A stretch of DNA of 64,000 bases, from positions 1,924,501 through 1,988,500 of the forward strand of contig OY987244.1 of the NCBI GenBank assembly GCA_963920765.1, read 5' to 3'. This document shows positions 3,067 through 53,970 of this stretch, in pieces. The translations under genes were made by a program, and so were the position numbers. How positions within the stretch are numbered: the stretch's first letter is position 1; every line of letters starts with the position of its first letter. This DNA comes from Ulota crispa (Eukaryota; Streptophyta; Bryopsida; Orthotrichales; Orthotrichaceae). The notes below the pieces were generated by a model. The model did not search any database. It was not told where the DNA came from and saw only the letters and a program-made list of their open reading frames with translations.

Positions 3067-3217
3067 TTAACCCCTTCAGTGCCCTTTTCTGAATTTTTTC
3101 ATATTTCGGCTTCTGCACAAATATGTGGTTTCTCTCAATTTCACCAAAATGGTCATAAACGAAAGATGATTTTGAAAAGTCCTCCAGATCTTGAACTGTG
3201 GAGCGCGTAGGGTTTAA
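3067..3217. mobile_element. possible short TTAA-flanked MITE
   Basis: TTAA at 3067 followed by CCCCTTCAGTGCCC, and GGAGCGCGTAGGGT followed by TTAA at 3214-3217. The two ends are weakly complementary (CCCCTTCAGTGCCC against ACCCTACGCGCTCC). The 151-bp size and TTAA flanks fit the TTAA element set of this window, but the inverted repeat is poor. Confidence 0.33.
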
Positions 3218-4026
3218 CGGATGTGTCCTTTGATCAGGTACGTTTTATCTGGTAGTTTAGAGGTCAGGGTTTTAAGGTTTATGTACTGCAGCTTTTCTGC
3301 TACCTGGACTTAACTCTCCAGTGGCTTTTCGAGGACCAGATGTAGCTGGCTTGTACTACACCCAATCCAGCTTTATGGACATTGTTGGCGAAAGCAATTG
3401 TTACTGACCTTGACCGTAATACCAGTTTCGTGGTAAGCAACCTCGTTGGAAAGTGCTCTGCCTTGTTAAATTCATTACTTGAAGTGTGGTACTCGTGCTT
3501 CATGTTAGATTTTGGGAGACTGTAGCTCACTTTGTGTAATTTGTGCAATCATTGATGCTGTGCTTTAGCTTGGTTGTACAGTACACCGACCATGCAGGTG
3601 ATAAATTTCGCCTTTGAGTGCTTTTTTTCTTTTTGTTTTTTTTCTTTTCGGTTCCCCGAGAGAGACTAAGAGTGGCTTTGGAACTCCAAACCTGCATTAG
3701 GCACTGACATTGGAAACTGGTGAGACTTTTGAGTTGCTTCTTCGTTGGCTCCTGCTTTGTTGTTGTCAACAAGCTTTCTCAGTTGTCTTTACAGTATGGC
3801 AGGGACTTCCATAACGGCCACCCGAAATCTTAAATACGTGTACAAGGACTTCTAAATCTTAGATTACAAAAAGCACAGCATGATTTAAGCATGCAGGTGT
3901 TTTAGCAAACAATGTAGATGAGACTAGTATATAGCTTGTTGGTCTCTATTTGCTGGAATATCTTGCTTGACTTGCTTAATAATATTATGTGACATTGTCA
4001 TTCAAAGTTTGCTGGTTTGGTTTGCA
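3218..4026. other. intergenic, nothing recognised
   Basis: No splice-consistent coding potential or repeat was seen. A T-rich tract lies at about 3624-3652. Short open frames on both strands match nothing I know. Confidence 0.4.
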
Positions 4027-4246
4027 TTAACTCCTGAATGGCCCATCGGCCATTTGTGGCTGTATGTACAGCCGTATTTTAGTTGCTCTGACGGTTTTCC
4101 AAAAAAAATCATGCACCCACCATCGTACAACCCTTCAATATGTATGGTTGTAACACTTAATTTCTAGCTAATTCAAACTTCTGAATATTGGTTGCGACAA
4201 TATTTGGTACCGTATCTCTAGAGCCCAAGGGCCCTTCAGTGGTTAA
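4027..4246 (+). mobile_element. TTAA-flanked MITE, small family (copy 1)
   Basis: TTAA at both ends. The left end reads CTCCTGAATGGCCC and the right end GGGCCCTTCAGTGG. The 220-bp interior is shared with copies at 25489-25721 (same strand) and 24241-24441 (opposite strand); shared pieces include ATGCACCCA, GGTTGTAACACTTAATTTCT and GGTACCGTA...TCTAGAGCCCAAGG. There is no coding capacity. The TTAA duplication with CCC-type ends points to the piggyBac superfamily. Confidence 0.75.
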
Positions 4247-4980
4247 TTAGAAAAACTAATATCTCTCTTATGCATTTGCTCTAGTGTTGGTACTGATGTT
4301 CGGTGGGTCCTTTTTCAATGAAACTTTGAATCTTCATAACTTTTGCACAGAGTATGCAAAAGACGCATTCTTTGGTGCGTTGGAACTCTAGTTTACTTTG
4401 TAACAAGGAACATCAATGAAACAAAAAAGCACTCACTTGACCAGTTCAAGGAAAGAAGAAGTGCTCAGGGTCAAAAGGGGCGAAGGATTTTGGCTGTTCC
4501 TGTCGCAGACACAATTTAGACGCCGACCATGGCGAGGTAAGGACAGAAGGCAGACAGCTGGGGTGTGGACCTTGCAGGGTAGGCGAGTTGCTTCAGAAGG
4601 CGCAGGACGAGGGAGCTGCGGCGATGGGAGGTTGTTATTGGCAGGACTGAGCAACTCTCCCGACAACTGCTGCTTTTGCTGCCTCGCTGCTTCTTGTTTG
4701 TTGCCAGGGCCACACAAGTCAAAGCAGCTTGTTTGGAACGGATGACAAAATAAAATATATTTTTGGAGTATTGGGGGACAATCACTTTGCTCAAGGTTCT
4801 ATGTGTTGTTCTAATGTTGTTCTATTAAAGGTTATCTCTGTAGGCAACCAGGGTTTTTTTTTTTTTTGGCAAAAATTTGTCTAAATCTTACCTCAAATTT
4901 TCACTCATAACATTTAGTAGCTTGAAGAGAGGCTGCCTTTCCCTCTCTTCAAGTATCATCCACGAACTTCATCTTGACAA

Positions 4981-4984
<4 letters not shown>
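4247..4984. other. intergenic with a GC-richer island and possible polyadenylation signal
   Basis: Positions 4400-4740 are GC-rich relative to their surroundings and open on both strands, but no protein family or splice pattern was recognised. AATAAA occurs at about 4748 and could end a non-coding or unannotated transcript. A T-run of about 14 lies at 4853-4866. Confidence 0.35.
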
Positions 4985-5072
<88 letters not shown>

Positions 5073-5073
5073 A

Positions 5074-5104
<31 letters not shown>

Positions 5105-5126
5105 GTATATATATATATGTATATAT
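4985..5126. repeat. compound (AT)n(GT)n(AT)n microsatellite
   Basis: A (TA)n block of about 66 bp is followed by a (GT)n block of about 40 bp with one A interruption, then a second, imperfect AT block. Open frames across it are simple-repeat artefacts. Confidence 0.97.
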
Positions 5127-5256
5127 TTTTGTTTTATTTTTTATTTTATTTTTTGACATGGTCTGGCCCCCACATCAACGTATGTGTACTAAGCTAAGCC
5201 TCTCTTTCATAAACTTTATGACAAATTCAGCCAAATGTCCCCATAGCTAAAGATGG

Positions 5257-6544: not shown

Positions 6545-7438
6545 TTAACCCTTTAATGACCACACACATTTTCACGAAACCATTAGAAATTGGGATAGTA
6601 AACTTGGATTTGCATTCGAATCAATTATGGACCCAATTTTAATAATCCAACTGTACAAATGAGAAGTACACCTTCTTTACTATAAAGCATCAAAATTGCA
6701 ATTAGATCTACCATTGGAGATGAAATATTATAATGATTGAGTGAGTTGTAGGCAAGAATTCTCTAGTTTTCATGCTTCTATAGTTTTGGATCTTACTGCT
6801 TCATACAAGCTTTGCTTGAGAAGAGCCATAAATTTCTAAAAAGTTGGGTTTCCCGCCTTTCCAATAAGACTAGTTTCACTCAAAATAAACAAAAATAGCA
6901 ATCACAAGGTGTAGCTAAGTGGACAAAAAGGGTCAAAAATCCCACTTTCTTCACTACCCTAAAACATTTTTACAAGAAACTTGATAAATGCTATGGAAAA
7001 TCCATTTGGTGAAGACAGTAAAGAATTGGCCTCAAATGTAAAACAACTTGTTTTTTTAATGAAATGATAGCATCATTTCAATAGATTTTCAAATACTACA
7101 ATTTTACTAATATTGTATAGGAAACCAATACAAGTGTATTTCTTGATCAATCTGAAATTTTTTAGGATTGCATAATTGAAATGTGGCATCCTTCTTGGAT
7201 GTTTAATGTATTGTGTTGTTGCTTTGATCCATCTTTGACTATATGTGAATACGCATTTTGAGGCCATGCCATATAAACACCATTATTTATGAATTCACAT
7301 ACCCGATTCCATTGTTGTTTTTTTGATTGGATGCAAAAATCTTGTGATCACAAGCATTTTGACCAATTTCCAAATTGTTAGGTGATTTTACTCTATACGC
7401 CAAAAACCACTCTGGTTCGGTGGTCTCTAAAGGGTTAA
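6545..7438. mobile_element. TTAA-flanked element, 0.9 kb
   Basis: TTAA at both ends. Terminal inverted repeat CCCTTTAATGACCACA on the left against CCCTTTAGAGACCACC on the right. The AT-rich interior has no coding capacity. It abuts and probably interrupts the repeat copy to its left. Non-autonomous piggyBac-like element by its ends and TTAA. Confidence 0.75.
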
Positions 7439-21541: not shown

Positions 21542-22317
21542 TTAACCCTTTAGGGCCAAGGTAGCCAAATTCGGTTATTTTAGCATTGTATTTGAAATAG
21601 TTTTTTGGGCATGTTGCGATTTTGAGTGACGTCTAAATGATGTCAAAGGGCACAAGAATTTTGGATCAAACAAGCCCAAGTACACTGTTATTGGAAGAGT
21701 AATGAATTCAAAAGCTTGAATTAAAGTGAGTCAAGCTCCAGAATTGTGAAAAAAAATTGTACAAAGATTTCCTCATTTCACAATGCTTGAAATTCTTATC
21801 CAAATTCAATTCAGTTGAAATAATTTTCATATGCTTGGTATGAAGGACACCTACCACATTGTAGTTTCTCAAATTCACATTTGGGCTCTAAAACAGATAC
21901 AAATTTGACTTAACAATGCCGTATATAATTTTGGAAATAATGGCGCTCTCAACCTCGCATAGATGTATTATAATCTTTGTGATCATTTAGGCTAAGCTTG
22001 TAAGCTTTGACCAAGTAATAAATCCAGTAGTATGTATTCCATCTATACAAGTAGATCTTGATAAGATCCAAGCATTTTTTGAAAAAACATGGAAAAAGGC
22101 TACTAACCCAATGATCTCAAATATGATTTTCACTTTTACCTCAAGTGGCTAAAAACAGTGCTAGAAAGTTAAAATTTTCAAACTTGGCATTGTAAAGTTT
22201 CAAAAAAAATTAGGTGCATAATTTTTTAGGTGACAATCCTCCTAAATTTAGCTAGTTTAAAGATTGTTGTTGCTAATAGCAACTTGATCCGGGGCGCCTT
22301 GGGCCCTAAAGGGTTAA
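21542..22317. mobile_element. TTAA-flanked element, 0.78 kb
   Basis: TTAA at both ends with terminal inverted repeats CCCTTTAGGGCC on the left and CCCTTTAGGGCCCAAGG on the right. The first 12 bp are identical. The interior has no coding capacity and is not obviously shared with other copies here. Piggybac-like by its ends. Confidence 0.8.
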
Positions 22318-22450: not shown

Positions 22451-23371
22451 TTAACCCCAAAAGGACCAAGCTAAGTTTTCACCAAAAACTCTTCAAAACT
22501 GCCATTTTTGAACCATCAATCAAATTTGAAAACAAATATATTTTTATGCATATGTGACCATAGGATCTTGTAGAAGAATAGTTTTAGAAGATGTGGAAAA
22601 AACATCAGAGTTTTTCACCACGTGGATTGGAAGTTAGAATGGTTTGAATATTTAAAAACGTCTTGTGAAAAACTGGGCAGCTACCCTTCAAAAGGTGAAA
22701 TTCCTAAGGAAAAAAGGCCATGTGGGTGCTGCTTCTTTAAATTCATTATTCCACCTAAGTAAAGTACATGTCAAAAAAGTTTCAAATCATTTGGAGTTGT
22801 ATAACATATGGAAAAAAATTAGTAAGTAAAAAGAAGTAGAGAATGATTCAAAACACAAAATTGTTAAGAATTTCATTATGGAAATGAAAAATGCCAATCC
22901 CAATGGTTATAATGTTGCAATAAACAATATACATCCTTTGGTTTGTTTTTTTTTCCAAAATGTTGAAAATTGATTTAAATTTAGGACTTCAAAGTTTATT
23001 TTAGAGTAGAGAATCTATAACTGCCCGCAAACAAAAAATCCTCATAACTTTCATCTTATTGATCAAAATGGAATGATTGAAAGCTTCTTACATTCACATA
23101 AATCTCCTAAACCAATTTTAAAAATTTGTTTCCAAAAAATTGATTTTTAAAAATTTGCCTAGATTGCCCCTTGAACGTAAAAAGCAACATATTAGGTCAT
23201 AACATTTTACTCAAAATTCCAAATGTCATGAAATTTAGTGCATATGAAAGATAAACCTTGTCCCCACATCTATTAAAAATTGAGACTAAACTATGAAAAG
23301 CTCCAATCACAAGTACCTACCCAAAATCGCTATGTTTCTAAATAAAAGGGGCCTGGTCCTTTAGGGGTTAA
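22451..23371 (+). mobile_element. TTAA-flanked element, 0.93-kb family (copy 1)
   Basis: TTAA on both sides. Ends CCCCAAAAGGACCAAGC against CCCCTAAAGGACCAGGC. The interior carries family landmarks also found at 28275, 39385, 42372, 48808 and 50478: a GCCACTTTT-like block near the left end, TAGGATCTTG, and CTCATAACTTTCATCTTATTGATC. Non-coding and non-autonomous. Diverged, so an old copy. Confidence 0.85.
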
Positions 23372-23644: not shown

Positions 23645-24244
23645 TTAACCCATTAAGGTCGGTGATTGATTTTGGGGTGGGCAAGGCCTTTTTTGGTGTT
23701 TTGGAAAAACTCATACTAACAAAGAATACGAATGCGTACAAAAGATCCAATCATACGAATGGCAATGTCATGCATGGTTTATGGGTATGCATTAGTTATT
23801 TTATGTTTGATTTTGTTTACTAGTAGGTTTAAATGTGCATGCATGCGTTTTCGTACAAACACGGCAGTCTCTACAGTGGTGCATTATATTTTTTATGGAT
23901 TGTTCTTTCTTGTTGCTTAATGGACCACTTGGCAATTCCTTAGGGTGATGATGGGTTTAGAGAAAACTTGGATTCTTGGGAATGCGTACAAGTACTCAAT
24001 TTTTACCAATTATGACCATCTTTCTGAATTCATTCATTTATTTTGGCAACCAATACTAGTTTTTCCAATGCCTTGACCTCACAGCAGCTCAGCTAAACCT
24101 AGTTTTTGTTCCAATCTATGGGGTTCCTAATTGCCTACACCCGTCCCCTTTGCTGCATCCTCAAATTACCTAACATGCTCTCCCTACCAACTAAAAAGAG
24201 TCAAAATTGACTAGAAACTTGTCAACCGGTCCTTAATGGGTTAA
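23645..24244. mobile_element. TTAA-flanked element, 0.6 kb
   Basis: TTAA at both ends with inverted repeats CCCATTAAGGTC on the left and CCCATTAAGGACCGG on the right. The right TTAA at 24241-24244 is also the left TTAA of the next element, so the two abut exactly. Confidence 0.85.
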
Positions 24245-24441
24245 CCCCTGAAGGACCTTTGGGCTCTGGAGATATGGTACCAAATACGGTCGCAACCAAT
24301 ATTCAGAAGTTTGAATCACCTAAAAATTAAGTGTTACAACCATACATATTGAAGGATTTTATGATGATGGGTGCATAAATTTTTTTGGAAAGCCCTCATA
24401 GCAGCTCAAATACAAGGGCTTTCGTGACATTCAGGGGTTAA
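24241..24441 (-). mobile_element. TTAA-flanked MITE, small family (copy 2)
   Basis: Reverse-orientation copy of the 4027 and 25489 elements. It runs from TTAA CCCCTGAAGGACC to CATTCAGGGG TTAA, about 200 bp. Shared blocks include GGTACCAAATACGGT, CGCAACCAATATTCA and ATGGGTGCATAA. Confidence 0.85.
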
Positions 24442-25488: not shown

Positions 25489-25721
25489 TTAACCCCTTGA
25501 ACTGCCCGAAAGCCCTTTGCGACCATATGTATGGTTGTATATATATACGTATTTGAGTTGTTTTGAGGGTTTTTCAAAAAAAATTATGCACCCATTATCA
25601 TACAATCTTTCAATATGTGTGGTTGTAACACTTAATTTCTAATTGATTCAAACTTTTGAATATTGGTTGCAACCATATTTGGTACCGTAGCTCTAGAGCC
25701 CAAGGACCCTTTAGGGGTTAA
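25489..25721 (+). mobile_element. TTAA-flanked MITE, small family (copy 3)
   Basis: Ends CCCCTTGAACTGCCC and GACCCTTTAGGGG, TTAA on both sides, 233 bp. Colinear with 4027-4246. The TAA of its right TTAA served as the target duplication of the PIF-like element that starts at 25722. Confidence 0.88.
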
Positions 25722-26888: not shown

Positions 26889-27123
26889 TTAACCCTCAAA
26901 CATTTGAGCATGCTGCTGCGACTAATACAATACAAGGTGTTTTTTTTTGTATTTGGAATAGAATCACACCTCTACTACATTTGAAATCAACAAAGAAGTT
27001 GAAAAATAGATCAAAATTGTTCTAGAGAGCTACTTAAGACCCAAAATTATAGCTTCTTGTTGGTAGCAAATGTCAATTATATGACAACGTATATTCTATG
27101 CCCTATGGCCATTTAAGGATTAA
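26889..27123 (+). mobile_element. TTAA-flanked MITE, 0.24-kb family (copy 1)
   Basis: TTAA CCCTCAAACATTTGAGC at the left and GGCCATTTAAGGA TTAA at the right. The interior is shared with 47210-47448 (same strand) and 45622-45860 (opposite): TTGTATTTGGAA, CACACCTCTA, AAATCAACAAA, GGTAGCAAATGTCAATTAT. Confidence 0.8.
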
Positions 27124-28274: not shown

Positions 28275-29222
28275 TTAACCCATAAAGGCCCAAGCCCTTT
28301 TTTTCTGTGAAAGTCACTGAAAATTGCCACTTTTGGAGGAATAAGTAGAATGGTAGGAAATAAAGAATTTTTTGGAAATCCAACCATAAGATCTTGCTGT
28401 AGACTGTGAGAGGTACCTGTGTGAAAAAATAATCAGCTGATTCTAGATGTAGAGTGAGATATTGACATCCAAGGTGAAAGAAAAGTTTTTTTCCTTGTTG
28501 TCCAAAAATTTCAAAAGCCTTTGACCACTCCTATATCAAAAAAATTGCTCTATGCAAAACTAAAGTATTTTTTTCTCGTGTAGAAGACCAGGTTAGGTAT
28601 GTGTGGGATAATTTTCACATGAACTGGAGGTGTAAATCATACTTTGAAAAATCTTACAATGCCCAAAGGCCATGAAATTTGCATATAGACTAGGCAAAAT
28701 CGGAGGATATATGTAAAATTCAAAAATCTGAATTACTTTAATCCAAATGGTGAAGACCAAGGAATCTTAGTCTACTACAACTTGGAAAAAAAAAGTCAAA
28801 AAACAAATACACAAAATGCTCAAAAAAGTAAAGCTCCAAATTTTACGGCAAAAGGAATGCAGAGGTTTGGGAGTCCCATACCTACCAACTAAGTAAAACT
28901 TCTCATAACTTTCATTTCATCAATTAGAATTGAATGATTCAAAGCTTCCCACATATGTATAAATCTAAAGAGCCAATTTCAAATTTTTATTTAAAAAAAG
29001 GGCAATCTTTTTTTGGGCTGCCTAATTCTCCCCTATATTCAGTTATTCATGCATAACTTTTTCAATAAATATTGGAATGAAGAAAAAATTAGACGCCCTT
29101 GTAGATCTTTGAATTCTCCATCTTCCATAAAAGTTTCAAAATCACATAAAATAGTTTAGCTGTAAGTACATGCCCGAAACTCCACTTGGCCCCCGAGGAC
29201 CACTTGAGCTTTTAGGGGTTAA
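28275..29222 (+). mobile_element. TTAA-flanked element, 0.93-kb family (copy 2)
   Basis: TTAA CCCATAAAGGCCCAAGCCC at the left; the right end reads CCCCTAAAAGCTCAAGTGG in reverse complement. Colinear with 48808-49756 on the same strand but clearly more diverged. Its right TTAA is also the left TTAA of the next element. Confidence 0.88.
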
Positions 29223-29514
29223 CCCCTAAAGGACCAAGTGGCTGTTCAACAGCTACCTGAGAACTCAGGTAGGGTCATATGCAGTTAATTTTTATTGGAT
29301 GTTCTCAAAATTGTTACACAAGGTGCAAATATGTATCCCTTAAGTGGAGATGTAATTTTTTCCCCAATCAGATGCCCAGTTCAAAAGTTATGTTATCCAA
29401 AAGAATTTGGGCAACTTGGGTAGCTTGGGCATCTTTGGAGAATCTTATGCTAAAACTCTCATCAACTTTTGAAAGTTGGCAAGTATGTAACTAAAAAACA
29501 TAGTGTACAATTGT

Positions 29515-29552
<38 letters not shown>

Positions 29553-30841
29553 CTCACATCATGTTTAGCCCCTAAATGCCCAAGGCCTTTATGAACTTCT
29601 TGGAATTTTTAGGAAAGTGAACAATCAACCAACCTTTTCATAAATCTCATCAAGTTTTTTTAAACTATAACCATACAAATTTAAACTTGACATGTTAGAG
29701 ATTATATGGAAAAAGAAAACACAACAATATCACTTATAGTTTGAAAGATTATAATGTTTGAACATGAGGGTGTTAAAATTGCAAAAGCGACTTGAAGTTT
29801 TCTAATCCTCATTTCACATGTCAAATATAAAAAGTTGGTCATCAAAAAAATATGAGGTTTAAGTTCATTACATATTTAACCTCAACCAATTTACGGCTTT
29901 CAAAGTCTACTCATACATTTTTTTTAAATAGATTTCTAATGCAAAATTTTCTCCAAGCTCTAGTGTATTTGAGGCTCATTTTCAAGATCTTTCAACACTA
30001 AAAAACTCAAGATTGCAATGGACACCCATGTACAAAAACCTGAATAGAAAAATCATGAACATTCATTTTCAAAATCAGATTTTGATACTAAAAATAGACT
30101 TCAAAACAAACTTGCATTCAAAAGAAAATACCAAAAATTGTGATATGATAAGATTTTATTTGTCTTCAAAGTTTTGCAAACACCCAAATTAGGTGCCTTG
30201 GGCATTTAGGGGTTAGAAGGGAGTCAAAGTTTGTTAACTATGTTTGGGTAGTTTCAAGAAAAAAAAATCCTCTAACTTCAAGCTCTATTATCTTTCAATC
30301 TATAAATCCAAAACTCTTGAAACTTTTTTTTCACATGTTCCAAATGATTGTCTCTAACTTTTTGCCGTTCAAATTTCAATTAAAAGACTTCCTCATTACA
30401 CAAGAAATTGGAAAAGAATGATTAACGTATTGCCAGTTCATTAAACCTCCTTGCACTGCAGGGTGATTTTGAATAAGCTAGATTCTATCTTTGCATCTGA
30501 AAATTTTCATGAGTGAACCTAACATCATGTATTTGTGAATGGTCAAAAAGTTCAAATTTGTGTAGAGCAAAAAAATTCTCTAGTAAGGCTCAAAGTCTAC
30601 TAACCTTGTTTTGCATGAATGAAAAAAAGTTATAATTCTCACTTCAAACGTTACAATCTTACAATTTGCACGGTCAAATGGGCTGAATTTTTTTGCTCGT
30701 ATCAACTTATCTATTTGACACACTTTTATATGGTTGAAATTGAAAAAAAAGGTTTTTATTTTCAGTTTTGGGCAATGCACTAAAAGTTGGCAGTTTTTGA
30801 GGTTTTTTCTCAAAAAACACCCTTGGTCCTTTAGGGGTTAT
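29219..30841 (+). mobile_element. TTAA-flanked element, 0.97-kb family, with a nested element
   Basis: Left end TTAA CCCCTAAAGGACCAAGTGG. Right end is the reverse complement of CCCCTAAAGGACCAAGG followed by TTAT. Colinear with 52110-53077 once the nested 29565-30216 element is removed, and with the partial copy at 53609. A 32-A run at 29516-29547 is absent from the relative. No coding capacity. Confidence 0.85.
29565..30216. mobile_element. TTAG-flanked nested element, 0.65 kb
   Basis: Ends CCCCTAAATGCCCAAGGCC on the left and CCCCTAAATGCCCAAGGCA on the right (reverse complement), with TTAG on both sides. It sits in the 29219 element at a point where the related copies at 52440 and 53925 are uninterrupted (CTAA and TTAA at the corresponding positions). 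Confidence 0.88.
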
Positions 30842-35898: not shown

Positions 35899-38156
35899 TT
35901 AACCCCTTAGGGCTGGAGGAGGCAAAAACTGCATTTATAGATTTGAAATGAAATTTAGGGTGTGTTACCAATTTTGGATCATGGGTTGATCAATTACAAA
36001 CATGCACGGAATGAAGTCCGTTTTCAAGTGCACTTGTTTGATCAAAGTTTGGAATTACAAGCCATTGTAAAGAGAGTGATTCATTGGAAGGGGTATTTGG
36101 GAAACTTGAGTGTTCAATACAAATTACTCACAACAACACCAACAAGAGGGTGATGTCAGCTGACGTTATCCTGATGGAAAGTATTCCATCATGTAGATAT
36201 TCATAGCTTTTTTAAAAATGTTTGATTTTCAATAGGTGAAACTTTTTGTTTTTGAATTAAATAAAATTGCTAAAAGAAATGATTGGATTTGGAAAGCGGG
36301 AGAGGATAAGAGAATCAAAATCTTGAGTGGAGGTTAAATATGAGCTAGAGGATAAGCTAACGTGCACCCCACTTTAGGAAGGGTGGAAAAGTAAAGGAAA
36401 GTTTCTCTTTAGCAATTGGGAGTTGAGTGTGGGTGGCAGTTAACTGCTAGTAGAGAAAGCCTAACCTCGAACGGAGGATAGCTCCTAGATATTGTATTTT
36501 TTGTTTTTGAAATTTGGAGAGTTTGTTTCTGGAAAAGAGATGTTTCCAAATTGTGTTTGCAATTTTGATTTGGAACTAGGATGCAAAAGTTATGATTGCT
36601 TGAACTTGAGGATAGCAAAGCCATTTGAGGTAGAAAGGTTGCAACTTTGACAAGCCGTAGCTGATGTTCAGTTAATTATTTTGCTACAAAATTTGGAGAG
36701 TGTACTTTTCTTGGTTTTAGCTTTCTAGAAAAATATTGCACTTGACATTTGGAGCTTTGAAGAGGGAATTGTGAAGGTGCAAAGACTTGAATGTTGATTG
36801 TCTCTAGTGAGAAGGAGGCTGCAACTTTGAAGAGCCATAACTTTTGGTTGGTTTTGTATTTTGTTTTGAAACTTTTACAAATAGTAGCTTAAAAGATCAG
36901 CTTTTTAAATTGCTATCATTTGAGTTATTTGAAGCATTATTGAGAGAGTTATGGTCTGTAGAAGTTGAGAGGTTGGGTGTCTTTTTCAATTAAGATATCT
37001 AAACTTTGATTAGCTATAACTTTTGGACAAAGTCTTGGTTTTTGTTGGGTTTTACACATATTGTACTTGATAGTATTAGCTTTCCAATTTTTTATCACAC
37101 TTGTGTTTTAAAACTATAACACAAAAGTCATAGAGCTTCAAAGAGTCAGTGATTGGTTTGCCCAAGAGGGAGAGACCCCACTTTGTTTTCTTTCTAATTT
37201 TTATAGTAGATTAGAATGAAGTGAGAATTGAGGATTTGTGAGAGTTTAGAGGTTTGATAAATTTGGGGGTTCGAGGGATTTAGAGAATTGAGTACAAGCC
37301 CATTGTGGAGAGTATGTGCTTTCTAAAATTGTTCTTTAGGATTCATAATAGACGGAAACCATTCTGTATAGCAGGTACTCTCTAGAATTGTAGTGCAGGT
37401 GCTCTTTAGAATTTTGTTCTGAGATTATGTCAAGATAGATCCATAACACACACAATTACAGCTAAACACCCTATTTGTTCCTAAGGCATGCTCCTCTCAA
37501 CCTTACAACGTTTTTAAGGATTGGATAAATAATGCCACAATGTTAGCCAACCCAATTATTCTTTGGCTTTGTACCCCTATCCAAGCTCTTTAGTCCTTTC
37601 AAGGTTGCACAATCAAAATCACTTGTGTATAGTCACACTTCTTGTGAAAAAACACATAGTTGTAAATTAACATTATTCAAATAATTTGTCTAGTTGGATT
37701 TTCTAACTAAGAAATTTTCATTTTCTAAAAATAAATAAAATTTCATGATCTTTTCCACAATTTCTACACCCTAACCACCCATGCATTTCCTTCACCAAAT
37801 ATAGCACACGGTACAACTTTTTCCCAAAATCCCAATTTCAAGCCCTTCAACATATCACATATAAGAAAAGTTCAAAATTTTAAAATCTAATTCTACATTA
37901 GTTGCTTGTAGGAGCCATTCATACAACTTGTACAATCCAAACTTAATGCATTGCACCACCTTTCACTTCACCAATGCAACACATATCATAAGCAGATGGG
38001 TCTAGAATTATTATGTGCTTGTCTTCCAAGATTGCAATTTACATCAAATTAATGGATTGTGCTTTTTACATCTGATTTAAGTGGTAAAAAGCGTGAAGCA
38101 ATTTGCTTTTCCAAAAGAACAATCAGCTTGAAGAGCTAGCGGCCCTAAGGGGTAAA
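35899..38156. mobile_element. candidate large TTAA-flanked element, 2.26 kb
   Basis: TTAA CCCCTTAGGGCTGG at the left; CCCCTTAGGGCCGC as the reverse complement of the right end, followed by TAAA (one base from TTAA). The interior contains repeated blocks near 36638, 36828 and 37000 resembling GCAACTTTGAAGAGCCATAA. No transposase frame was recognised. If real, it is the longest of the set, though other sequence may be inserted inside it. Confidence 0.5.
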
Positions 38157-39384: not shown

Positions 39385-40309
39385 TTAACCCCTTAAGGAT
39401 CATGATCTTTATTTTGTCAAAAGACACTTAAAATTGCCACTTTTATGGCAAAGCATAAATAAGTTTAAAATTAGTCATCTTGCATATCTAAATGTAGGAT
39501 CTTGTACTAGATTACAATAAGAATGTGTCATACAAAACTCAAGAACTGTGACCAAAAATATTGGAAGATATTTGCATCTAAAGTTTAAAAAAATAAATTT
39601 GCACCTTGCCTGATTAGATTATTTAACTTTGAACTTCTTTAATTTAAATTTTTTGCACCACGGAGTTTGGAACTCTATTTTTGTGTGGTGGGAAGTTCAG
39701 TTGGGAATCTTGGGGGAAAAGTTAAAACAAAAAAACAAAACAAAAAATCATTCTTTAAAAAAAACATTAGGTAGAAGAAGGTATGAGATTGAACAAAAAC
39801 TTAAATTGCTAATAACCTTGCAATGGAATTGAAACGCAATAATCCCAATGGTGAGATTGTTCTAGAAAGCAAACTTCACCCTCTCCAACAATGTATTTTG
39901 AAAAAATGTTAAACTTGCATTCAAAAATGAAGTTTACAAGTTATTTTTTCAAAAAGATGCTTGAATTGCCCAAAAACAAGATTGTCCATAACTTTCTCAT
40001 AACTAGTCCAAATGGAATGAATCAAAGCTTCAGATGTAGACAAAGATTATAATGTATGAGAAAAAAAACCGTTTTTTTTCAAGTTTTTATAAGAATTTGT
40101 TTTGGTGCCCAGAGTCCCCAAATTTGTGCTTATTTGGGCATAACTTTTGCTCCCTGGCATCAATTGGAATAAAAATTGTATTCCCCAAAAGCTAATGTGT
40201 TTTTCTATCTTCAAAAAAATTTCATAAATTAAAACAAAAATTGGGACCATAGGTATTTACCCAAAATCCCATTTATTCTATATAGGGACAATGATCCTTT
40301 AGGGTTTAA
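39385..40309 (+). mobile_element. TTAA-flanked element, 0.93-kb family (copy 3)
   Basis: TTAA CCCCTTAAGGATCATGATC at the left, GACAATGATCCTTTAGGGT TTAA at the right. Interior landmarks AAAATTGCCACTTTT, GTAGGATCTTG and CATAACTTTCTCATAAC place it with the 22451/28275 family. Confidence 0.82.
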
Positions 40310-41359: not shown

Positions 41360-41410
<51 letters not shown>

Positions 41411-41573: not shown

Positions 41574-42375
41574 TTAACCCCTGAGCGCCTAGGCCATTTT
41601 CACCAAAATCAAGGTTTTTGGAGACTGACAACTTTGATGTATTGTATCTTGGTCAATCAGATGATTCACAAAAAGTGACCATTGAAAATATTGGAACACC
41701 TACTTAGAAAATGGTTTGCAAATTTTGGAAACAATTCACCGCACGAGATGGAAGATTATAACATTTGACCAAACAACATGTGATGACAAAATCTCATTTT
41801 TTGGTAGGTAGTTGCTATTTAATAAAATTTTCAAAATTCCATAAGCCCCAGATTCATCTCAAATTTGGTGAGCAGCAAGATTAGATGTGAATGCCCACAC
41901 TTGTAAATCAATGAAGATTGCACTTCTTTTTATGTCAAGTTTTAGGCTTCAAATTGCTATTGTAAGGAAAACAATGACCGGCACAATCAATGACGGTTGC
42001 CATAATAAGGGTCTAGAACATGCTTGAACCCTTGCCAACAATTTGCCGGCTACCACAAAGCTCACACAAAGAAGTTTGCAAGGGATATTGACTAGTTGCA
42101 ACTTGTAAAACATTGCTTGCCAACGTGCCCTATATGCTTGCCACCACGCTCCGTGCAGTGCCACCACGCCTCATATGGTGTTTTACCCAATCAAATCTCT
42201 TACAACACTTGTACAATATTTGGCTTTCCTCACCATTACTCCTTTGACATGTAAAATTTGAATGCCTTCATAATTGTAGATTATAGCAAAATCAAAAAGT
42301 TAGATCCAGTCCCTCAAAATTTGGCTTTGAAATCGAGCAAGGCAATATATGGGGCGTTGGGGCGCTCTGGGTTAT
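41574..42375. mobile_element. TTAA-flanked element, 0.8 kb
   Basis: TTAA CCCCTGAGCGCCTAGG at the left; the right end is GGGGCGCTCTGGG followed by TTAT. The GAGCGCC core is mirrored. The TTAT at 42372-42375 is also the left flank of the next element. Confidence 0.72.
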
Positions 42376-43320
42376 CCCGTAGAGGCCCAAGTGGTCCCTT
42401 GGGGGCCAAGTGGGGTTTCGGGCATGTACTTTCAGCTATACTATTTTGTGTGATTTTCTGAAACTTTTATGAAAGATGGGGAATTCAAAAATCTACGTGG
42501 GCACCTAATTCTTTCTTCATTTTGACATTTATTGAAGAAGTTATGCAAGAATACCTGAAAAATGGGGGAGAATCAGGTAGCTAAAAAAAAAACTGCATTT
42601 TTTAAAACCAAAATCTGAAATTGGTTTTTTATATTTATACATATGTGGGAAGTTTTGAATCATTCAATTTTGATCGATGAGATGAAAGTTATGAGAGGTT
42701 TTAGTTTGCGGGTAGGTATGGGACTCCCAAACCTCCATTCCTTTTGCCCCTTGTAAAATTTGGTGCTTTACTTTTTTGAACTCTTTTGTGTATTTGTTTT
42801 TTTACCTTTTTTTTTCCAAGTTGTAGTAGACTAAAATTCCTTGGTTTTTACCATTTGGATTAAAGTAATTCAAATTTCTGAATTTTGCATATATCCTCCA
42901 ACTTTGCCTAGTGTATATGCAAATTTCATGACCTTATGGCATTGCAAGATTTTACAAAGTATGATCCACACCTCCAATTCATTTGAAAATTCTCCCACAC
43001 ATACCTAACTTGGTCTTCTACATGGGAAAAAAACCTCAACTTTGCATAGAGCAATTTTTTCAAATAGGAGCTATCAAGGCTTTTGAAATTTTTGAGCAGC
43101 AAGGAACTTTTTATTTTTTTGCACTTTAGATGTCAATATCTCACTCCTCTATCTAGAATGAGCTAATCTTTTTCACACAAGTACCTCCCATAGTCTAGGG
43201 CAAGATCCTATTGTTGGATTTCCAAAAAATACTTTTTTTCCTACCTTTCTAATCCTTCCCCAAAAGTGGCAGTTTTTAGTGATTTTCACAAAAAGAAGGG
43301 CTTGGGCCTCTATAGGTTGA
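42372..43320 (-). mobile_element. TTAA-flanked element, 0.95-kb family (copy 4, young)
   Basis: Flanks TTAT and TTGA (one change each from TTAA). Ends CCCGTAGAGGCCCAAGTGG and GGGCTTGGGCCTCTATAGG. Nearly identical over its whole length to the reverse complement of 48808-49756, so one of the two moved or was copied recently. No coding capacity. Confidence 0.9.
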
Positions 43321-43403: not shown

Positions 43404-44308
43404 TTAACTTCTAACTGCCTAATGCACCAAATTTTGGTGTTAAAGAAACCTCAAGCAACTTTGAAACCTTGTTGAAGGTAGAGATTTGACTATGTTAACA
43501 TTTTTATTGGAGAAGTTGCTTGCTAAAGTTCGCTTTAATGTTCAATTCTAAAGTCTTCCTTACTGTATTCCAATTGTTTTTGGTGGAAGCCAAATTGCAA
43601 GGATACCTCTTGCACATCAAATAGTGTGATGGATAGTGTCAATAAAGAGCCGGTTATGACAAGTTGCCACATTGAAAAGATATGCATCAACTTGAGAATA
43701 AAGTGAAGATTTTCTGTGGGCACTCTTAGAGCAGTAAGGGCCATTTTAGTGAAATTTTATCATTTAACAAAATTTAAATATTTTTTTGGGCTAATTTCAC
43801 TTCAAATTTCTTGGCTATACAAATTCAAATTCATTCACCATTAAATGCTTTGTCGTTCATAATGATTTTTGGTCAATAATTGGAGCTAAATATTTTCTTT
43901 GTATTAGGTGGTAGCTCTTTGACAATTGCATTGTAGGCTCATTTATGAAATTGTGGTCATGGATTTGGAAGGGGAGTCATTTGTTTTGAAGTAATAACGA
44001 CCAATACAAAGTCATTGTAAGTGATTGTTTCCCATTTTTGTATACAAAAATTGCCATTTTTGCATTAAAAATTTTGGGTGGCTAAACCAAACAATTCCAT
44101 CCTCATCCACATTCAATCACAAATATCTTAAAATTTGGGTGACCCTTTTGAATTTTTTTTGGTAGCACCATCTAAAAGCCTTGAAGTTCAAGATCCTACA
44201 ATTACAATTTTGTTTTGATGTTCAATAATGACCATACATGGACAATTCAAGAACTTCAAAACTACATTCTAGAAACAAGAAAAATACCCTTGGGGATTTA
44301 GGGGTTAA
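43404..44308. mobile_element. possible TTAA-flanked element, 0.9 kb
   Basis: The right end CCCTTGGGGATTTAGGGG TTAA is convincing. The left candidate TTAA CTTCTAACTGCC is only a partial match to CCCCTAAATCCC. Confidence 0.45.
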
Positions 44309-44330
44309 TGTCAATAGGCCCCTCCTCCTT

Positions 44331-44685
44331 GGTGTTAAATATTCCATTTCTGTTTGGTGTTAAATATTCCATTTCTGTTTGGAGTTAAATATTCCATTTC
44401 TGTTTGGTGTTAAATATTCCATTTCTGTTTGGTGTTAAATATTCCATTTCTGTTTGGTGTTAAATATTCCATTTCTCTTTGGTGTTAAATATTCCATTTC
44501 TGTTTGGTGTTAAATATTCCATTTCTCTTTGGTGTTAAATATTCCATTTCTCTTTGGTGTTAAATATTCCATTTCTCTTTGGTGTTAAATATTCCATTTC
44601 TCTTTGGTGTTAAATATTCCATTTCTCTTTGGTGTTAAATATTCCATTTCTCTTTGGTGTTAAATATTCCATTTCTCTTTGGTGT
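44331..44685. repeat. 25-bp minisatellite, 14 units
   Basis: Unit GGTGTTAAATATTCCATTTC plus TGTTT or TCTTT. The array is almost perfect. The first five units carry the G variant, then C, G, and C in the rest. Unit two starts GGAG instead of GGTG. Confidence 0.97.
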
Positions 44686-45621: not shown

Positions 45622-45860
45622 TTAACCCTTGAATGCCCCATGAGTATAATAGATACATTGCCATATAATTGGCGTTTGCTACTTACAAGAAGTTTTAATT
45701 TGGAATCTTAAACAACTGGCTAGAACCACTTTGATCTGTATTCCAACATCTTTGTTGATCTTAAATGCAATATAAGTGTAGATCCATTCCAAATACAAGA
45801 AAAATACCTTATATTGTATTCATTTGGCTGGAAGTTGTTTTTCCAATGTTTAAGAGTTAA
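45622..45860 (-). mobile_element. TTAA-flanked MITE, 0.24-kb family (copy 2)
   Basis: TTAA CCCTTGAATGCCCC at the left and GTTTAAGAG TTAA at the right. The reverse complement is colinear with 26889-27123: TTTGCTAC..AAGAAG, TTTGATCT, TTTGTTGATCTTAAATG, TTCCAAATACAAG. Confidence 0.8.
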
Positions 45861-46143: not shown

Positions 46144-46866
46144 TTAACCCGTAAAGGACCAAAGTCCCCTCGGGACTTTTGGGATTTGGGGCATGTACTT
46201 ATGGCTAAATTACTTTGTGTAATTTTTTGAAACTTTTACGGAGGATGGGGAATTCAAAAATCTATGTGGGCATTTAATTTTTACCTCATTTTGACATTTA
46301 TTGAAGAATTTAAAATTGAATTTATGAGAATTTTAGTTCGGCAAGCAACCCAAAAACTTTTTAAAATTTGCATTTTTTTTAAATAAAAATTTGAGGTTAG
46401 TTCTTTGGACTTACGTATATGTGGGAAGTTTTGAATCATTCAATTCTAATTGATGAGATGAAAGTTATGAGAAGTTTTAGTTTGCAGGTAGGTGTAGAGA
46501 ATCTCAAAATTATGTCTACACGCAAACTAAAACTTCTCATAACTTTCATCTCATCAATTAGAATTGAATGATTCAAAGCTTCCCACATATACATAAGTCT
46601 AAAGAACTAACCTCAAATTTTTATTTTAAAAAAATGAAAATTAAAAAAAAAAAAATGGGCTGCCTGCCAAACTAAAATTTTCATAAATTCATTTTTTACT
46701 TCTTTAATAAATGTTGGAATGAGGAAAAAATTAAATGCCAACATAGGTTTTTGAATTCCCCATCTCCCATAAAAGTTTCAAAAAATCACACAAAGTAGTT
46801 TAGCCATAGGTACGTGCCCAAAATCCCATTTGTCCCCAAAAGGGGGCTTGGTCCTTTAGGGGTTAA
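46144..46866. mobile_element. TTAA-flanked foldback element, 0.72 kb
   Basis: TTAA at both ends, CCCGTAAAGGACCAAAGTCC on the left and CCCCTAAAGGACCAAGCCCC on the right (reverse complement). The two halves are inverted copies along their whole length (about 345 bp each), meeting at 46493-46523 around GTGTAGA...TCTACAC. Each arm matches one end of the 0.95-kb family (ACTTTGTGTAATTTTTTGAA, GGGGAATTCAAAAATCTA), so it is a rearranged derivative of that family. Confidence 0.92.
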
Positions 46867-47209: not shown

Positions 47210-47448
47210 TTAACCCCTAAAGGATTGAGCGTGTCGCTAAGGCCAGTTCGGTACGGGTTGTTTTTCTTGTATTTGGAAAGGATCCACACCTCTATTACAT
47301 TTGAGATCAACAAAATAGTTGGAGAATAGATCAAAACGGTTTTAGTGAGCTAGCTTACCTGAGATCCCAAATTAAAACTTCTTATTGATAGCAAATGACA
47401 ATTATACGGCAGCATATATACTATGCCTTATGGTCCTTTAAGGGTTAC
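47210..47448 (+). mobile_element. TTAA-flanked MITE, 0.24-kb family (copy 3)
   Basis: TTAA CCCCTAAAGGATTGAGC at the left and GGTCCTTTAAGGG at the right, followed by TTAC (one base changed). Colinear with 26889-27123 through TTGTATTTGGAA, CACACCTCTA, GATCAACAAA and GATAGCAAATGACAATTAT. Confidence 0.85.
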
Positions 47449-48807: not shown

Positions 48808-49756
48808 TTAATCCCTAAAGACCCAAGCCCTTTTTTTGTGAAAATCACTAAAAACTGCCACTTTTGGGGGAGGGAGTAGAAAGGTGGGAAAAAAAGTATT
48901 TTTTGGAAATTCAACAATAGGATCTTGCCCTAGACTATGGGAGGTACTTGTGTGAAAAAGATTAGCTCATTCTAGATAGAGGAGTGAGATATTGACATCT
49001 AAAGTGCAAAAAAATAAAAAGTTCCTTGCTGCTCAAAAATTTCAAAAGCCTTGATAGCTCCTATTTGAAAAAATTGCTCTATGCAAAGTTGAGGTTTTTT
49101 TCCCATGTAGAAGACCAAGTTAGGTATGTGTGGGAGAATTTTCAAATGAATTGGAGGTGTGGATCATACTTTGTAAAATCTTGCAATGCCATAAGGTCAT
49201 GAAATTTGCATATACACTAGGCAAAGTTGGAGGATATATGCAAAATTCAGAAATTTGAATTACTTTAATCCAAATGGTAAAAACCAAGGAATTTTAGTCT
49301 ACTACAACTTGGAAAAAAAAAGGTAAAAAAACAAATACACAAAAGAGTTCAAAAAAGTAAAGCACCAAATTTTACAAGGGGCAAAAGGAATGGAGGTTTG
49401 GGAGTCCCATACCTACCCGCAAACTAAAACCTCTCATAACTTTCATCTCATCGATCAAAATTGAATGATTCAAAACTTCCCACATATGTATAAATATAAA
49501 AAACCAATTTCAGATTTTGGTTTTAAAAAATGCAGTTTTTTTTTTAGCTACCTGATTCTCCCCCATTTTTCAGGTATTCTTGCATAACTTCTTCAATAAA
49601 TGTCAAAATGAAGAAAGAATTAGGTGCCCACGTAGATTTTTGAATTCCCCATCTTTCATAAAAGTTTCAGAAAATCACACAAAATAGTATAGCTGAAAGT
49701 ACATGCCCAAAACCCCACTTGGCCCCCAAGGGACCACTTAGGCCTTTAGGGATTAA
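48808..49756 (+). mobile_element. TTAA-flanked element, 0.95-kb family (copy 5, young)
   Basis: TTAA at both ends. Ends TCCCTAAAGACCCAAGCCC and, in reverse complement, TCCCTAAAGGCCTAAGTGG. Nearly identical to the inverted copy at 42372-43320 and a closer relative of 28275-29222 than of the others. No coding capacity. Confidence 0.92.
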
Positions 49757-50477: not shown

Positions 50478-51415
50478 TTAACTCCTAAAGGATCGTTGTC
50501 CCTTTGGGGGACAGGTTGGACTTTGGGCATGTACCTATGGTTAAATTACTTTGTGTGATTTTCTGAAATTTTTATTGAAGGTGGGGAATTCAAAAATCTA
50601 CATGTGCATCTAATTTATTCTTCATTCCGACATTTGACGAAGAAGTCATGCATGGATTTCAGAAAATTTGGGGAGGACTGCCTAACCGGGCAGCCCAAAA
50701 ACTTCTTTAAAAATTACTTTAAAAAAAAATCAAATTTGAAATTGGTTCTTTAGATTTTTATATTCATGAGAAGTTTTAAATCATTCAGTCTCAATCAATG
50801 ATATGAAAGTTATGAGGAGTTTTTGTTTGCGGGCAGTTATGGAATCTCTACTCTAAAATAAACTTTGAAGTCCTTTATTTTACTCAATTTTCAATATTTT
50901 GGAAAAAAGAAAAAACCAAAGGAAGTAGATTGTTTATCACAACATTATCATTGTTGGGATTTGCATTTTTCATTTCCATAATTAAATTCTCAACAATTTA
51001 GTGATTTGACTCATTCTCTACTTCTTTTTACTTATTATTTTTTCCCATGTGTTGTATAGTTCCAATTGATTTGAAAATTCTCCCACACATACCTAACCTG
51101 ATCTCCTACATGGAATAACTAAAGCGCAACTTTGGGTAGAGCAATTTTTTTGTTATAAGAGTAGTCAAAGGCTTCTAAAAATTTTGGACAGCATGGAAAA
51201 AAACTTTTTTTTTCATTTTAGATGTAAATATCTCACTCCTCTCCATTTGGAATGAGCTGATTTCTTTCCCACAAGTACCTCTTCTAGTCTAGGGCAAGAT
51301 CCTACGGATGAACTTCCCAAAAACAAAACATAAAATCCATTTTTTCTAAACCTCCTAAAAGTGGCAGTTTTTAGTGATTCTAGCAGAAAAAAGGGCTTGG
51401 TCCTTTAGAAGTTAA
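50478..51415 (-). mobile_element. TTAA-flanked element, 0.93-kb family (copy 6)
   Basis: TTAA CTCCTAAAGGATCG at the left and GGCTTGGTCCTTTAGAAG TTAA at the right. The reverse complement is colinear with 22451-23371 and 48808-49756 (AAAAACTGCCACTTTT, CTCATAACTTTCATATCATTG). Its right TTAA is shared with the next element. Confidence 0.9.
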
Positions 51416-51768
51416 CCCCTAAACGTTAGCATGGACAAAAAACGTCCTTTGCCTCCGAAAAAAGACTTTGTATCCCACATAAAGACTAATTTTGATCTGA
51501 TTTTTTTTCAGAAGTGATCATAAATGTGTAGTACATCATGGAAGGCAAAAAATTACCTCTTGAGATACATTCATTTTATTTTGTAATCCAAATTGTGATA
51601 CATAGTGTTAGCTCCCAAGCTGCCTTTTTTGCAATTTTCATGAGGGCACCATGCACTATTGACTTTTCCAACTTTTTGAAGCAATACTACTGGTGCCCAT
51701 GTGCATAAAACTGTAGAATGCTACAGACAGGGCAAGCCACGGTGATCCATCCGTCCTTTAAGGGTTAT
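51412..51768. mobile_element. TTAA-flanked element, 0.36 kb
   Basis: TTAA CCCCTAAACGTTAGC at the left, CCGTCCTTTAAGGG followed by TTAT at the right. The ends are inverted repeats in their first 8-9 bases. It abuts the previous element through one TTAA. Confidence 0.75.
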
Positions 51769-51868
51769 CCTTCACTAGGGAGGTCTTCTTGCTCCCCAAA
51801 TAAAAGGATCTTCTAGTGAATGCCATTCACCAGCTCTGGCCTCCTCTGGTCAAGGATCAATCAACATT

Positions 51869-51970
51869 GAGAGTTTATAACTAAATCCTCTCCCAAGTAT
51901 ATAGGGAGGGATATTCCTCCACGGTTGGGGGAGGTATAAACCCTGGTGAACAATGTTATGGAGTGACATC
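51869..51970 (-). repeat. dispersed repeat with TATA-like core (partner at 8092-8186)
   Basis: The reverse complement of this stretch matches 8092-8186, including GGAATATCCCTCCCTATATA here against GGAATATGCCTCCCTATATA there. The surrounding 51769-52109 holds nothing else recognisable. Confidence 0.7.
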
Positions 51971-52109
51971 CATATTTATCATACACATAATAAAATATTA
52001 ATTATGGGTTGAAAACAATCATGTTAAATCATTAGTAAAATTTTGAACTCTCCAAGAGGCTTTTATTTTTTGACTCTCTTAAAATTTTATTGAGCCTAGG
52101 CTGGATACA

Positions 52110-53077
52110 TTAACCCGTAAAGGTCTAAAGGCCCAAGTGTTTGTTGAACAACCACTTGAGAACTCAGGTAGGGTCATATGGAGTTAGTTTTTATTGGATG
52201 TTCTCAAAACTGTTAAACAAGGTGTAGAAATGTATCTCCCAAGTGGAAATATGATTTTTTCCCTAATCAAATGCTCAATTCAAAAGTTATGCTACCCAAA
52301 ATAATTTTGGCAGCTTGGGCAATTTGGGCACCCTTGGAGAATCTTATGCTAAAACTCTCATCAACTTTTGAAATTTGGCAAGTATGTAATTAAAAAGACA
52401 TGGTGTACAATTGTCAAATAATTAAATAAATGGAGGTCTCACATCAAGTTCTAAAGGAAGTCAAACTTTGTTAACTATCTTCGGGCAGTTTCAAGAAAAA
52501 ATGTTTTCTTCTAACTTTGGGGCCAATTGTCTTTCATTCTACGAATCCGATGCTTTTGAATTTTTTTTCAAACATTCCAAATGTTTGTTTCTAACTTTTC
52601 ACAATTTAGAATTCAAATAAAAGATGTCCCCAATGCACAAGAAATCGTGAAAGAATGACTAATGCTTTGCCAATTTACTTAACCTCCTTATACTACAGGG
52701 CAATTTAGAGTAAACTAGATTCATAATTTGCTCTTGAAACCTTTCATGAGTGTACCTAACAAGATTTAGATATCAATAGAAAAAAACTTTAATTCATGCC
52801 GACCAAAAATTCAACTCCAAAGAGGCTCAAAGACTGATGACCCATTTGGGCAGGGACAAAAAAATATTTTTTATAAATTTTGAATGCTATAATCCTTCAA
52901 TTTGCAAGGTCAAATGGGCTAAATTTTTTTGCACTCAATATTGAAATATTTTACTACAATTTTGTAAGGTTGAAGTTTCAAAAATAGTTTTCAAATTAAA
53001 ATCCACATCAACATATTGGAAAAACACAAATTTTGGCAGTTTTTGGTGAAAACATCCCTTGAGCCTTCAAGGGTTAA
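52110..53077 (+). mobile_element. TTAA-flanked element, 0.97-kb family (uninterrupted copy)
   Basis: TTAA CCCGTAAAGGTCTAAAGG at the left and CCCTTGAGCCTTCAAGGG TTAA at the right. Colinear with the 29219 element minus its nested insertion. Shared blocks include GAGAACTCAGGTAGGGTCAT, TTTTTATTGGATGTTCTCAA and GGTGTACAATTGTCAAA. Confidence 0.88.
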
Positions 53078-53608
53078 AAGCATGTGTGAAGTGTATGACT
53101 TTCCAATTTTACATCACAAAAAGCATTTATATACAATTGTAATCTAGTCCTTGTATGAAGGACCTTAGCCACATGCACAATCCAAAACAATTTAAAAAAG
53201 CACTGTACTCATAAAATATGTACATGTACCCACTAGTCATTATCCAAGTACTTCACTCATCTATAAAATAGAATAAAATAAAATTTACGCTTCTATTTGA
53301 CCACATCTTTGTCCAATTGGAATGCACTACAATATAACTTTCATGATTGCATTGAACTCAAAGGGTGGGTGCAAACATGGGATTAGTGATTGTTGTTGTA
53401 ATAAGTACATATTTTGGGATCCTTTTTGAGACTTGTTAAGGGCCTCTTGGAGGGTTCAAAATTTTGCTAATAAAAGTGCAAGCAAAACTCTTAACAACAA
53501 AAGGTGAATATTGTCACCATGGCAACACATGGTTTGACACAAGACACGTGGGACTCAAAAAGTAGCTTGAAATACACGCAATTGACAAAACCTTGTTGAA
53601 AGCCTTCC
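53078..53608. other. intergenic, nothing recognised
   Basis: AT-rich spacer without a supported feature. Confidence 0.4.
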
Positions 53609-53970
53609 TTAATTCCTAAAGGACCAAGTATTTGTTCAACAAACACTTGAGAACTTGGGTAGGGTCATATGAAGTCAATTTTACTGAATGTTCTCAAAAT
53701 TGTTACACAAAATGTATGTATGTATAACCAATTAGATGTAATTTTTCCACAATTGGATGCTCAATTCAAGAGATATGCCATCCAAAAAAATTTGTACAAC
53801 TTGGGCAATTTGGACATCTTTGAAGAATCTTATGCTAAAATTCTCATCAACTTTATATGTACATAACTAATAAAATATGGTATTAAATTACCAAAAATAA
53901 AATAAAAATTGAACTATCAAATCACATTTTAAGAAGAATCAAATTTTGTTAACTATGTCTGGGCAGTTTC
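53609..53970 (+). mobile_element. truncated TTAA element, 0.97-kb family
   Basis: TTAA TTCCTAAAGGACCAAG starts it and the sequence follows 52110-53077 (GGTAGGGTCATATGAAGTCA, GTTCTCAAAATTGTTACACA) as far as CTGGGCAGTTTCA. The right half is missing. Confidence 0.82.

Follow-up and report, generated by a model that had tools for sequence, protein, structure and literature searches.

TTAA-flanked repeats in a moss genome as probable non-autonomous transposons of the piggyBac superfamily

The 64,000-nucleotide stretch of contig OY987244.1 analysed here (the window, to whose positions all element coordinates refer) is crowded with repeats that lie between TTAA-like sites and end in inverted repeats, which raises the questions of which transposon superfamily they belong to and which enzymes moved them. 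The answer favoured here, with a probability of about 0.92, is that they belong to the piggyBac superfamily as non-autonomous DNA transposons of the cut-and-paste kind, residing in a moss and mobilised in trans. Observed are a 4-bp duplication of TTAA or TTAG, ends starting with CCC, transposase genes of the DDE_Tnp_1_7 family with a DDD triad, matched ends at 5 of 13 transposase loci, and termini common to transposase-bearing and non-autonomous elements (element H with 43404-44308, element J with 35899-38156).

The CCC-starting ends (mostly CCCCTAAAGGACC, with the variants CCCCTAAATGCC, CCCCTTAGGGC and CCC(A/T)TTAAGG) would be the inverted repeats recognised by the transposase, and insertion would occur into TTAA-like sites, duplicating them. 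The enzymes for their mobilisation in trans, now or formerly, would come from larger piggyBac elements (5-7.5 kb) of this genome, which encode transposases. Several such transposases, well diverged and with different end sequences, coexist, and some non-autonomous families appear to be internal-deletion derivatives of transposase-bearing elements. These piggyBac proteins presumably made the insertions seen here, any pairing of a lineage with a family (above all the commonest) or dating of its movement would be provisional, and excision may have been seamless, restoring TTAA.

The TTAA-flanked end motif

The pattern TTAACCCCTAAAGGACC, that is, TTAA followed by CCCCTAAAGGACC, was found at 17 sites on both strands of the window with up to two mismatches, and at none in any of 50 shuffles in which the 13 letters behind TTAA were permuted. 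With up to three, four and five mismatches the number of sites rose to 28, 44 and 58, compared with shuffle means of 0.06, 1.4 and 11.06 (0.0 for up to two). An earlier note on this DNA, made from its letters alone, had proposed TTAA-bounded elements with inverted ends; these counts, together with the empty sites described below, indicate that such elements are real, although some of the intervals then listed need correction.

The ends are abundant throughout the genome (274.8 Mb, 157 contigs), where each pattern was searched along with its reversed form as a control. Exact copies of TTAACCCCTAAAGG number 15,411 (7,719 + 7,692; reversed pattern, 1 + 0), those of TTAACCCCTAAATGCC and CCCCTAAAGGACCAAG 2,118 + 2,123 and 1,803 + 1,811 (reversed 0 in both cases), those of TTAACCCATTAAGG 138 + 137 (reversed 1 + 3) and those of TTAACCCCTTAGGGC 48 + 49 (reversed 0). 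Twenty loci of 10 kb from scaffold C1, spaced rather than random (18 interior and 2 at contig ends), served as a sample, and families defined in the window cover 20,308 of their 197,300 bases (10.3%). This coverage is very uneven, with 6 of the 20 loci lacking any window-family sequence. Exact TTAA precedes 43 of the 61 13-letter cores recognised in the window and these loci with up to two mismatches.

Neighbouring ends tend to face each other. Among the first 100 of the 4,241 places of TTAACCCCTAAATGCC, neighbours up to 1.6 kb apart were convergent in 21 cases, on the same strand in one and divergent in none; the convergent spacings were 637-664 b (13 pairs), 906-931 b (2), 72-79 b (4), 386 b and 1,503 b (one each). 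All 97 places of TTAACCCCTTAGGGC gave five convergent and no divergent pairs within 3 kb. The facing TTAACCCCTAAATGCC ends 72-79 b apart, located at C1:241512-241590, 531562-531640, 3324724-3324795 and 3362792-3362870, are possibly elements consisting of hardly more than two ends.

Nineteen intervals of the window were aligned by blastn to the window itself and to 28 further loci (L numbers), which revealed families and their borders. Many of the alignments start or end at TTAA, and many families have CCCCTAAAGGACC-type ends in common while their interiors are not shared. Most window elements begin with CCC, some with one decayed base. The inverted ends agree at 9 or more of 14 positions in 19 of the 22 window intervals examined, 14 of which have the same 4-mer on either side (TTAA in 13, TTAG in one); this last count is not independent, because the intervals were chosen by their TTAA-like ends.

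Simple counting of pairs is weak evidence. TTAA...TTAA pairs 150-2500 b apart with an inverted match of at least 11/14 number 15 in the window, 10 of them being named elements, and 0-4 in 20 block shuffles; substituting AATT for TTAA also gave 15 pairs (from 857 AATT sites versus 472 TTAA sites), of which the palindromic element 46144-46866 contributes 5 inside its arms; ATAT gave 13. When at least five G or C were required in both ends, 11 pairs remained for TTAA, 7 for AATT and 2 for ATAT, with each of eight further 4-mers giving 0-2. The case thus rests on the counts of the motif and on the empty sites.

Target-site duplication

Empty paralogues carrying a single copy of the 4-bp site (TTAA or TTAG) were found for three of five nested insertions. 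The insertion 29565-30216 has TTAG on both sides, and a single TTTAG stands in L006, a relative without the insertion; other relatives read TTTTG or TTCTA at this place. Element 52110-53077 is among the empty relatives. Since TTAG was duplicated, the fourth base is part of the duplication. In the second case, a 6545-family copy is interrupted by L013:6170-7105, and the relatives of this copy show TTAA once (L004) or TTGA (window). In the third, the element interrupted by L012:5904-6627 has long inverted arms, the opposite one of which shows a single TTAA; the bases there vary in more distant relatives. The two remaining candidates, N4 and N5, gave weak paralogue matches only and none, respectively. 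The duplication is 4 bp long and TTAA-like; it is not TA and not TTA.

This length bears on the two kinds of miniature inverted-repeat transposable element (MITE) best known from plants, Tourist and Stowaway, as they appear in passages of two reviews (PMC10004981, PMC9033089). Repeats of PIF/Harbinger origin, duplicating 3 bp (TTA or TAA), or of Tc1/mariner origin (Stowaway), duplicating TA, might have conserved neighbouring bases that were misread as TTAA. The 4-bp TTAA or TTAG at the empty sites and the TTAA in front of 43 of 61 cores make such an origin extremely unlikely.

piggyBac transposase genes

A profile search of the genome with PF13843 (DDE_Tnp_1_7) yielded at least 120 matches distributed over C1-C11, the best at E 1.3e-73 and all above the cut-off; the count is a lower bound, with 116 of 528 candidates scored. 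An open frame of 476 amino acids from C4 matched two PDB entries at 0.001 by phmmer, 6x67 (Transposase, E 4.1e-20) and 9c0f (piggyBat transposase, 5.8e-17), and no others; we take 6x67 to be the T. ni piggyBac protein. The attribution to piggyBac in the earlier note was thus confirmed, by the 4-bp TTAA-like duplication, by the transposase genes and by the matched CCC ends.

Three aspartates occupy the aligned positions, presumably catalytic, in five of seven sampled transposase domains; B is without two of them and D without the third. Ten of the at least 120 matches are free of internal stops, some of them being pieces of one gene. Among the seven transposases read, A, B, C and G contain stops. 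D and F have none, though D is missing an aspartate and one stretch of F is apparently out of frame; E consists of two stop-free pieces whose separation of about 270 b could represent an intron or a lesion. Elements F and D have an open frame upstream of the transposase in common (L034:1519-2151 and L032:425-772, with 30 of 64 amino acids identical), for which no Pfam family matched at 0.01; it is possibly a second gene of these elements.

The possession of CCCCTAAAGGACC-type ends by many families with differing interiors had led to the earlier proposal that a single transposase moves them all. This is improbable: the seven sampled domains are 30-62% identical to each other (30-51% in 20 of the 21 pairs), and several end types exist, some with matching transposase-bearing elements. 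One transposase lineage for the CCCCTAAAGGACC type alone is possible.

Kolobok elements, which likewise duplicate TTAA and would fit the duplications at the empty sites, are reported from chlorophytes, rhodophytes and other organisms in an excerpt of one study (PMC9587614). Their termini are described there as 5'-RR...YY-3', whereas those of the window elements are mostly CC...GG, and the transposase found with such ends by the PF13843 search is of the piggyBac kind. Kolobok is thus a very unlikely source, disfavoured by the terminal bases.

Transposase-bearing elements and their ends

Thirteen transposase loci (A-K, M and N) were inspected for TTAA-flanked CCC ends, and matched ends 5-7.5 kb apart were found around A, I, E, F and H (Table 1). 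Two elements link these genes to the small repeats. The left terminus of H is common with a 0.9-kb family (43404-44308, L022, L010, L009) over 36-117 b per alignment, in patches to about 256 b; with 43404-44308 itself it shares the outer 84 b at 74%, and the relatives carry the left homology further inward. The right terminus is shared over 563-595 b at 75-81% (565 b at 79% for 43404-44308). The simplest reading of these alignments is that the 43404-44308 family would be an internal-deletion derivative of an H-like element. Both termini of J are common with window element 35899-38156 and with L013 at about 2674-3600, and 2,799 b upstream of transposase C2:21309041 there is an exact J-type end, at a distance comparable to the 2.8 kb in J. 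The search for a transposase that the earlier note suggested as a check came out in favour of piggyBac, the termini of H and J being shared with small elements.

Several observations count against the proposed link between these enzymes and the window elements. None of the 13 loci yielded a transposase-bearing element bounded on both sides by CCCCTAAAGGACC. The closest approach is the right end of element C, CCCCTAAAGGCCCAAGCCC, of which 57-59 b match 28275, 48808 and L027 at 83-84% and 63 b match L007 at 81%; no other end at a transposase locus comes near. No convincing end pair was seen at B, C, D, G, K and M (6 of the 13 loci), and N is doubtful. A second, outer right end of F scores equally; it belongs to an abutting small element of the 0.97-kb family, and the homology of F with locus M ends at the inner one. 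End-like motifs near transposases also point outwards; because such ends are common and some face this way, a lone end proves little, and reliance is therefore placed on matched pairs and shared termini. Finally, H could have arisen by insertion of a transposase-bearing segment into a small element. No end motif was seen at its right inner junction, which speaks against this, and on the left side one ATAACCCCC stretch occurs 382 b inward.

The host genome

The earlier note had assumed a flowering plant, which the host genes contradict. Exons of dynein heavy chains gave 16 matches, 14 above the cut-off (best 8.5e-43), and flowering plants, to our knowledge, are without these proteins. A LEAFY locus on C4 encodes a DNA-binding domain identical to PDB 4bhk (FLORICAULA/LEAFY HOMOLOG 1) at 60/61 and 103/105 positions (163/166). 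It is less similar to 2vy1 (PROTEIN LEAFY), with D and C in place of the H and R of the latter; we take 4bhk to be from Physcomitrella, 2vy1 from Arabidopsis, and D and C to be the type II residues. A chalcone-synthase-like frame has 9kah, 9jl6, 6dx7 and 2p0u as its best PDB matches, of which 6dx7 is presumably from a moss and 2p0u from a liverwort. Type II LEAFY is known mainly from mosses, with one liverwort report, and members of the Bryopsida have this type, according to a passage in PMC6588583. From these genes taken together, the host is almost certainly a moss.

Contamination of the assembly by insect or fungal DNA could be suspected, piggyBac being known mostly from animals and fungi (PMC10813416, which in the same excerpt also says 'plants'). 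This is scarcely credible, given that the transposase matches are distributed over C1-C11, that the 41-Mb scaffold C1, on which element E is located, terminates in TTTAGGG repeats, and that C4 holds the moss-like LEAFY gene along with transposase matches. Searches of 14 control genomes gave no piggyBac matches, and likewise none for dynein and LEAFY, so that these genomes are uninformative on eukaryotes.

Relation to known transposons

The piggyBac element of T. ni (6x67) and piggyBat (9c0f) resemble the present elements in the DDE_Tnp_1_7 domain, the DDD triad, the TTAA duplication and short inverted ends starting with CCC. They differ from them in that the host here is a moss, several diverged lineages occur together, and more than 15,000 exact ends are present in the genome. 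Rare TTAG duplications, as seen here, and ends including CCCTC, CCCTT and CCCAT are described for animal piggyBac in a passage of PMC10813416, which gives about 2.5 kb for 'well-defined' piggyBac, compared with 5-7.5 kb here. Small, non-autonomous elements or MITEs related to piggyBac are likewise described from coral, moth and Daphnia, in papers that mention both piggyBac and TTAA (PMC2872659, PMC9033116, PMC4912750); all are animal hosts in contrast to the land plant studied here.

Plain statements that plants lack piggyBac are doubtful, because reviews and repeat tables name it. In the excerpts at hand, PiggyBac stands among the superfamilies of angiosperm MITEs (PMC10004981) and, in a sentence on plants, among class II superfamilies (PMC10794571); a fern assembly is credited with 1,230 PiggyBac fragments (0.00%; PMC6890710) and a grass with one (PMC8319324). 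The angiosperm MITEs are only named, in a passage that shows no transposase (PMC10004981), whereas the moss has transposase genes and matching ends. A 2022 review of land-plant transposons, as excerpted, lists six terminal inverted repeat (TIR) superfamilies without the word piggyBac, and Sola1 for Physcomitrella (PMC9033089). Among the titles and abstracts listed by limited searches of the open-licence literature, which leave out Repbase, none described piggyBac from a moss, although a published or database record may exist. One moss genome paper matched the term, but its matching text concerns the 'piggybacking' of gene expression only (PMC10619864). The end sequence itself retrieved only unrelated titles among the matches listed.

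The superfamily itself is already known, mainly from animals; in this moss its elements and enzyme genes occur in large numbers. It is probable that they represent a large radiation of several piggyBac lineages in a land plant, long resident in this moss lineage, with transposases about 30-60% identical and derivatives, possibly including the 72-79-b end pairs, amounting to about one tenth of the sampled C1 DNA. piggyBac would then be, by its transposases, a further TIR superfamily of land plants. If this is correct, the transposase matches and exact ends would give piggyBac an enzyme-based place among land-plant transposons. It would then have to be asked whether the superfamily was inherited from long ago or arrived horizontally, and the elements could supply material for a plant-derived TTAA transposon tool. 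Bryophyte repeats with TTAA flanks and CCC ends should not be classed by default as Tourist or Stowaway MITEs.

Elements of the window

The 24 listed element pieces make up 25.7% of the window, in which Rfam gave no match at the gathering score. Elements 46144-46866, 35899-38156 and 43404-44308 are additions to the earlier list. The assignment of 29219 to the 0.97-kb family was upheld, except that 29219 and 29565 are not separate neighbours, the former being one element interrupted by the latter; 25489 and 26889 have the proposed TTAA flanks, with weak inverted ends. For the listed 41574, 45622, 48280 and 53609, right ends were not established among the 22 intervals examined. L013, L004 and the upstream flanks of transposase loci D and I contain relatives of 6545-7438, and copies of 50478-51415, full-length or nearly so and 84-89% identical, occur in L007, L013 (two), L019 and L025.

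Table 1. Positions of the window elements and of the transposase-bearing elements; ends are inverted matches out of 14, flanks are left/right.
Feature	Position	Strand	Flanks	Ends	Remarks
220 b	4027..4246	.	TTAA/TTAA	11/14	non-autonomous
894 b	6545..7438	.	TTAA/TTAA		ends CCCTTTAATGACCA/CCCTTTAGAGACCA
776 b	21542..22317	.	TTAA/TTAA	13/14	
921 b	22451..23371	.	TTAA/TTAA	13/14	CCCCTAAAGGACC type
600 b	23645..24244	.	TTAA/TTAA		CCCATTAAGG-type ends, resembling left end of element F
201 b	24241..24441	.		10/14	TTAA common with 23645-24244
233 b	25489..25721	.	TTAA/TTAA	8/14	weak ends
235 b	26889..27123	.	TTAA/TTAA	6/14	weak ends; related to 45622-45820, 47210-47448
948 b	28275..29222	.	TTAA/TTAA		family of 42372 and 48808
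0.97-kb family	29219..30841	.	TTAA/TTAT	14/14	split by 29565-30216
652 b, nested	29565..30216	.	TTAG/TTAG	14/14	inside 29219-30841; CCCCTAAATGCC type
2.26 kb	35899..38156	.	TTAA/TAAA		non-autonomous; both termini homologous to element J (C2)
925 b	39385..40309	.	TTAA/TTAA	12/14	
949 b	42372..43320	.	TTAT/TTGA		shares 797 inner bases with 48808-49756
905 b	43404..44308	.	TTAA/TTAA		termini homologous to ends of element H (C5)
723 b	46144..46866	.	TTAA/TTAA	13/14	nearly palindromic
239 b	47210..47448	.	TTAA/TTAC	10/14	
949 b	48808..49756	.	TTAA/TTAA	12/14	
938 b	50478..51415	.	TTAA/TTAA	11/14	
357 b	51412..51768	.	TTAA/TTAT	9/14	TTAA common with 50478-51415
968 b	52110..53077	.	TTAA/TTAA	9/14	family of 29219 and 53609
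Element A	C3:13130262-13135288		TTAA/TTAA	12/14	transposase-bearing
Element I	C2:15046195-15051296		TTAA/TTAA	12/14	transposase-bearing
Element E	C1:1176510-1184004		TTAA/TTAA	11/14	transposase-bearing
Element F	C8:19568194-19573849		TTAA/TCAA	11/14	transposase-bearing
Element H	C5:10867266-10873011		TTAA/TTAA	14/14	transposase-bearing
Element J	C2, about 34593255-34598762				transposase-bearing; bounded by homology only; decayed TTAA on both sides

The inner bases shared by 42372-43320 and 48808-49756 are consecutive and identical, and the two copies lie in opposite orientation 5.5 kb apart with different ends and flanks, a pattern more suggestive of gene conversion between them than of two recent insertions. 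Tandem arrays occur at 14225-15399 (81-b unit, about 14.5 copies) and at 44325-44685 (25-b unit, 14.4 copies, 97% match), the latter beginning 17 b past element 43404-44308. An exon-like frame at 62393-62752, with a weak match to the LON substrate-binding domain (E 2.5e-6, 28.0 bits; cut-off 28.7), is probably part of a host gene.

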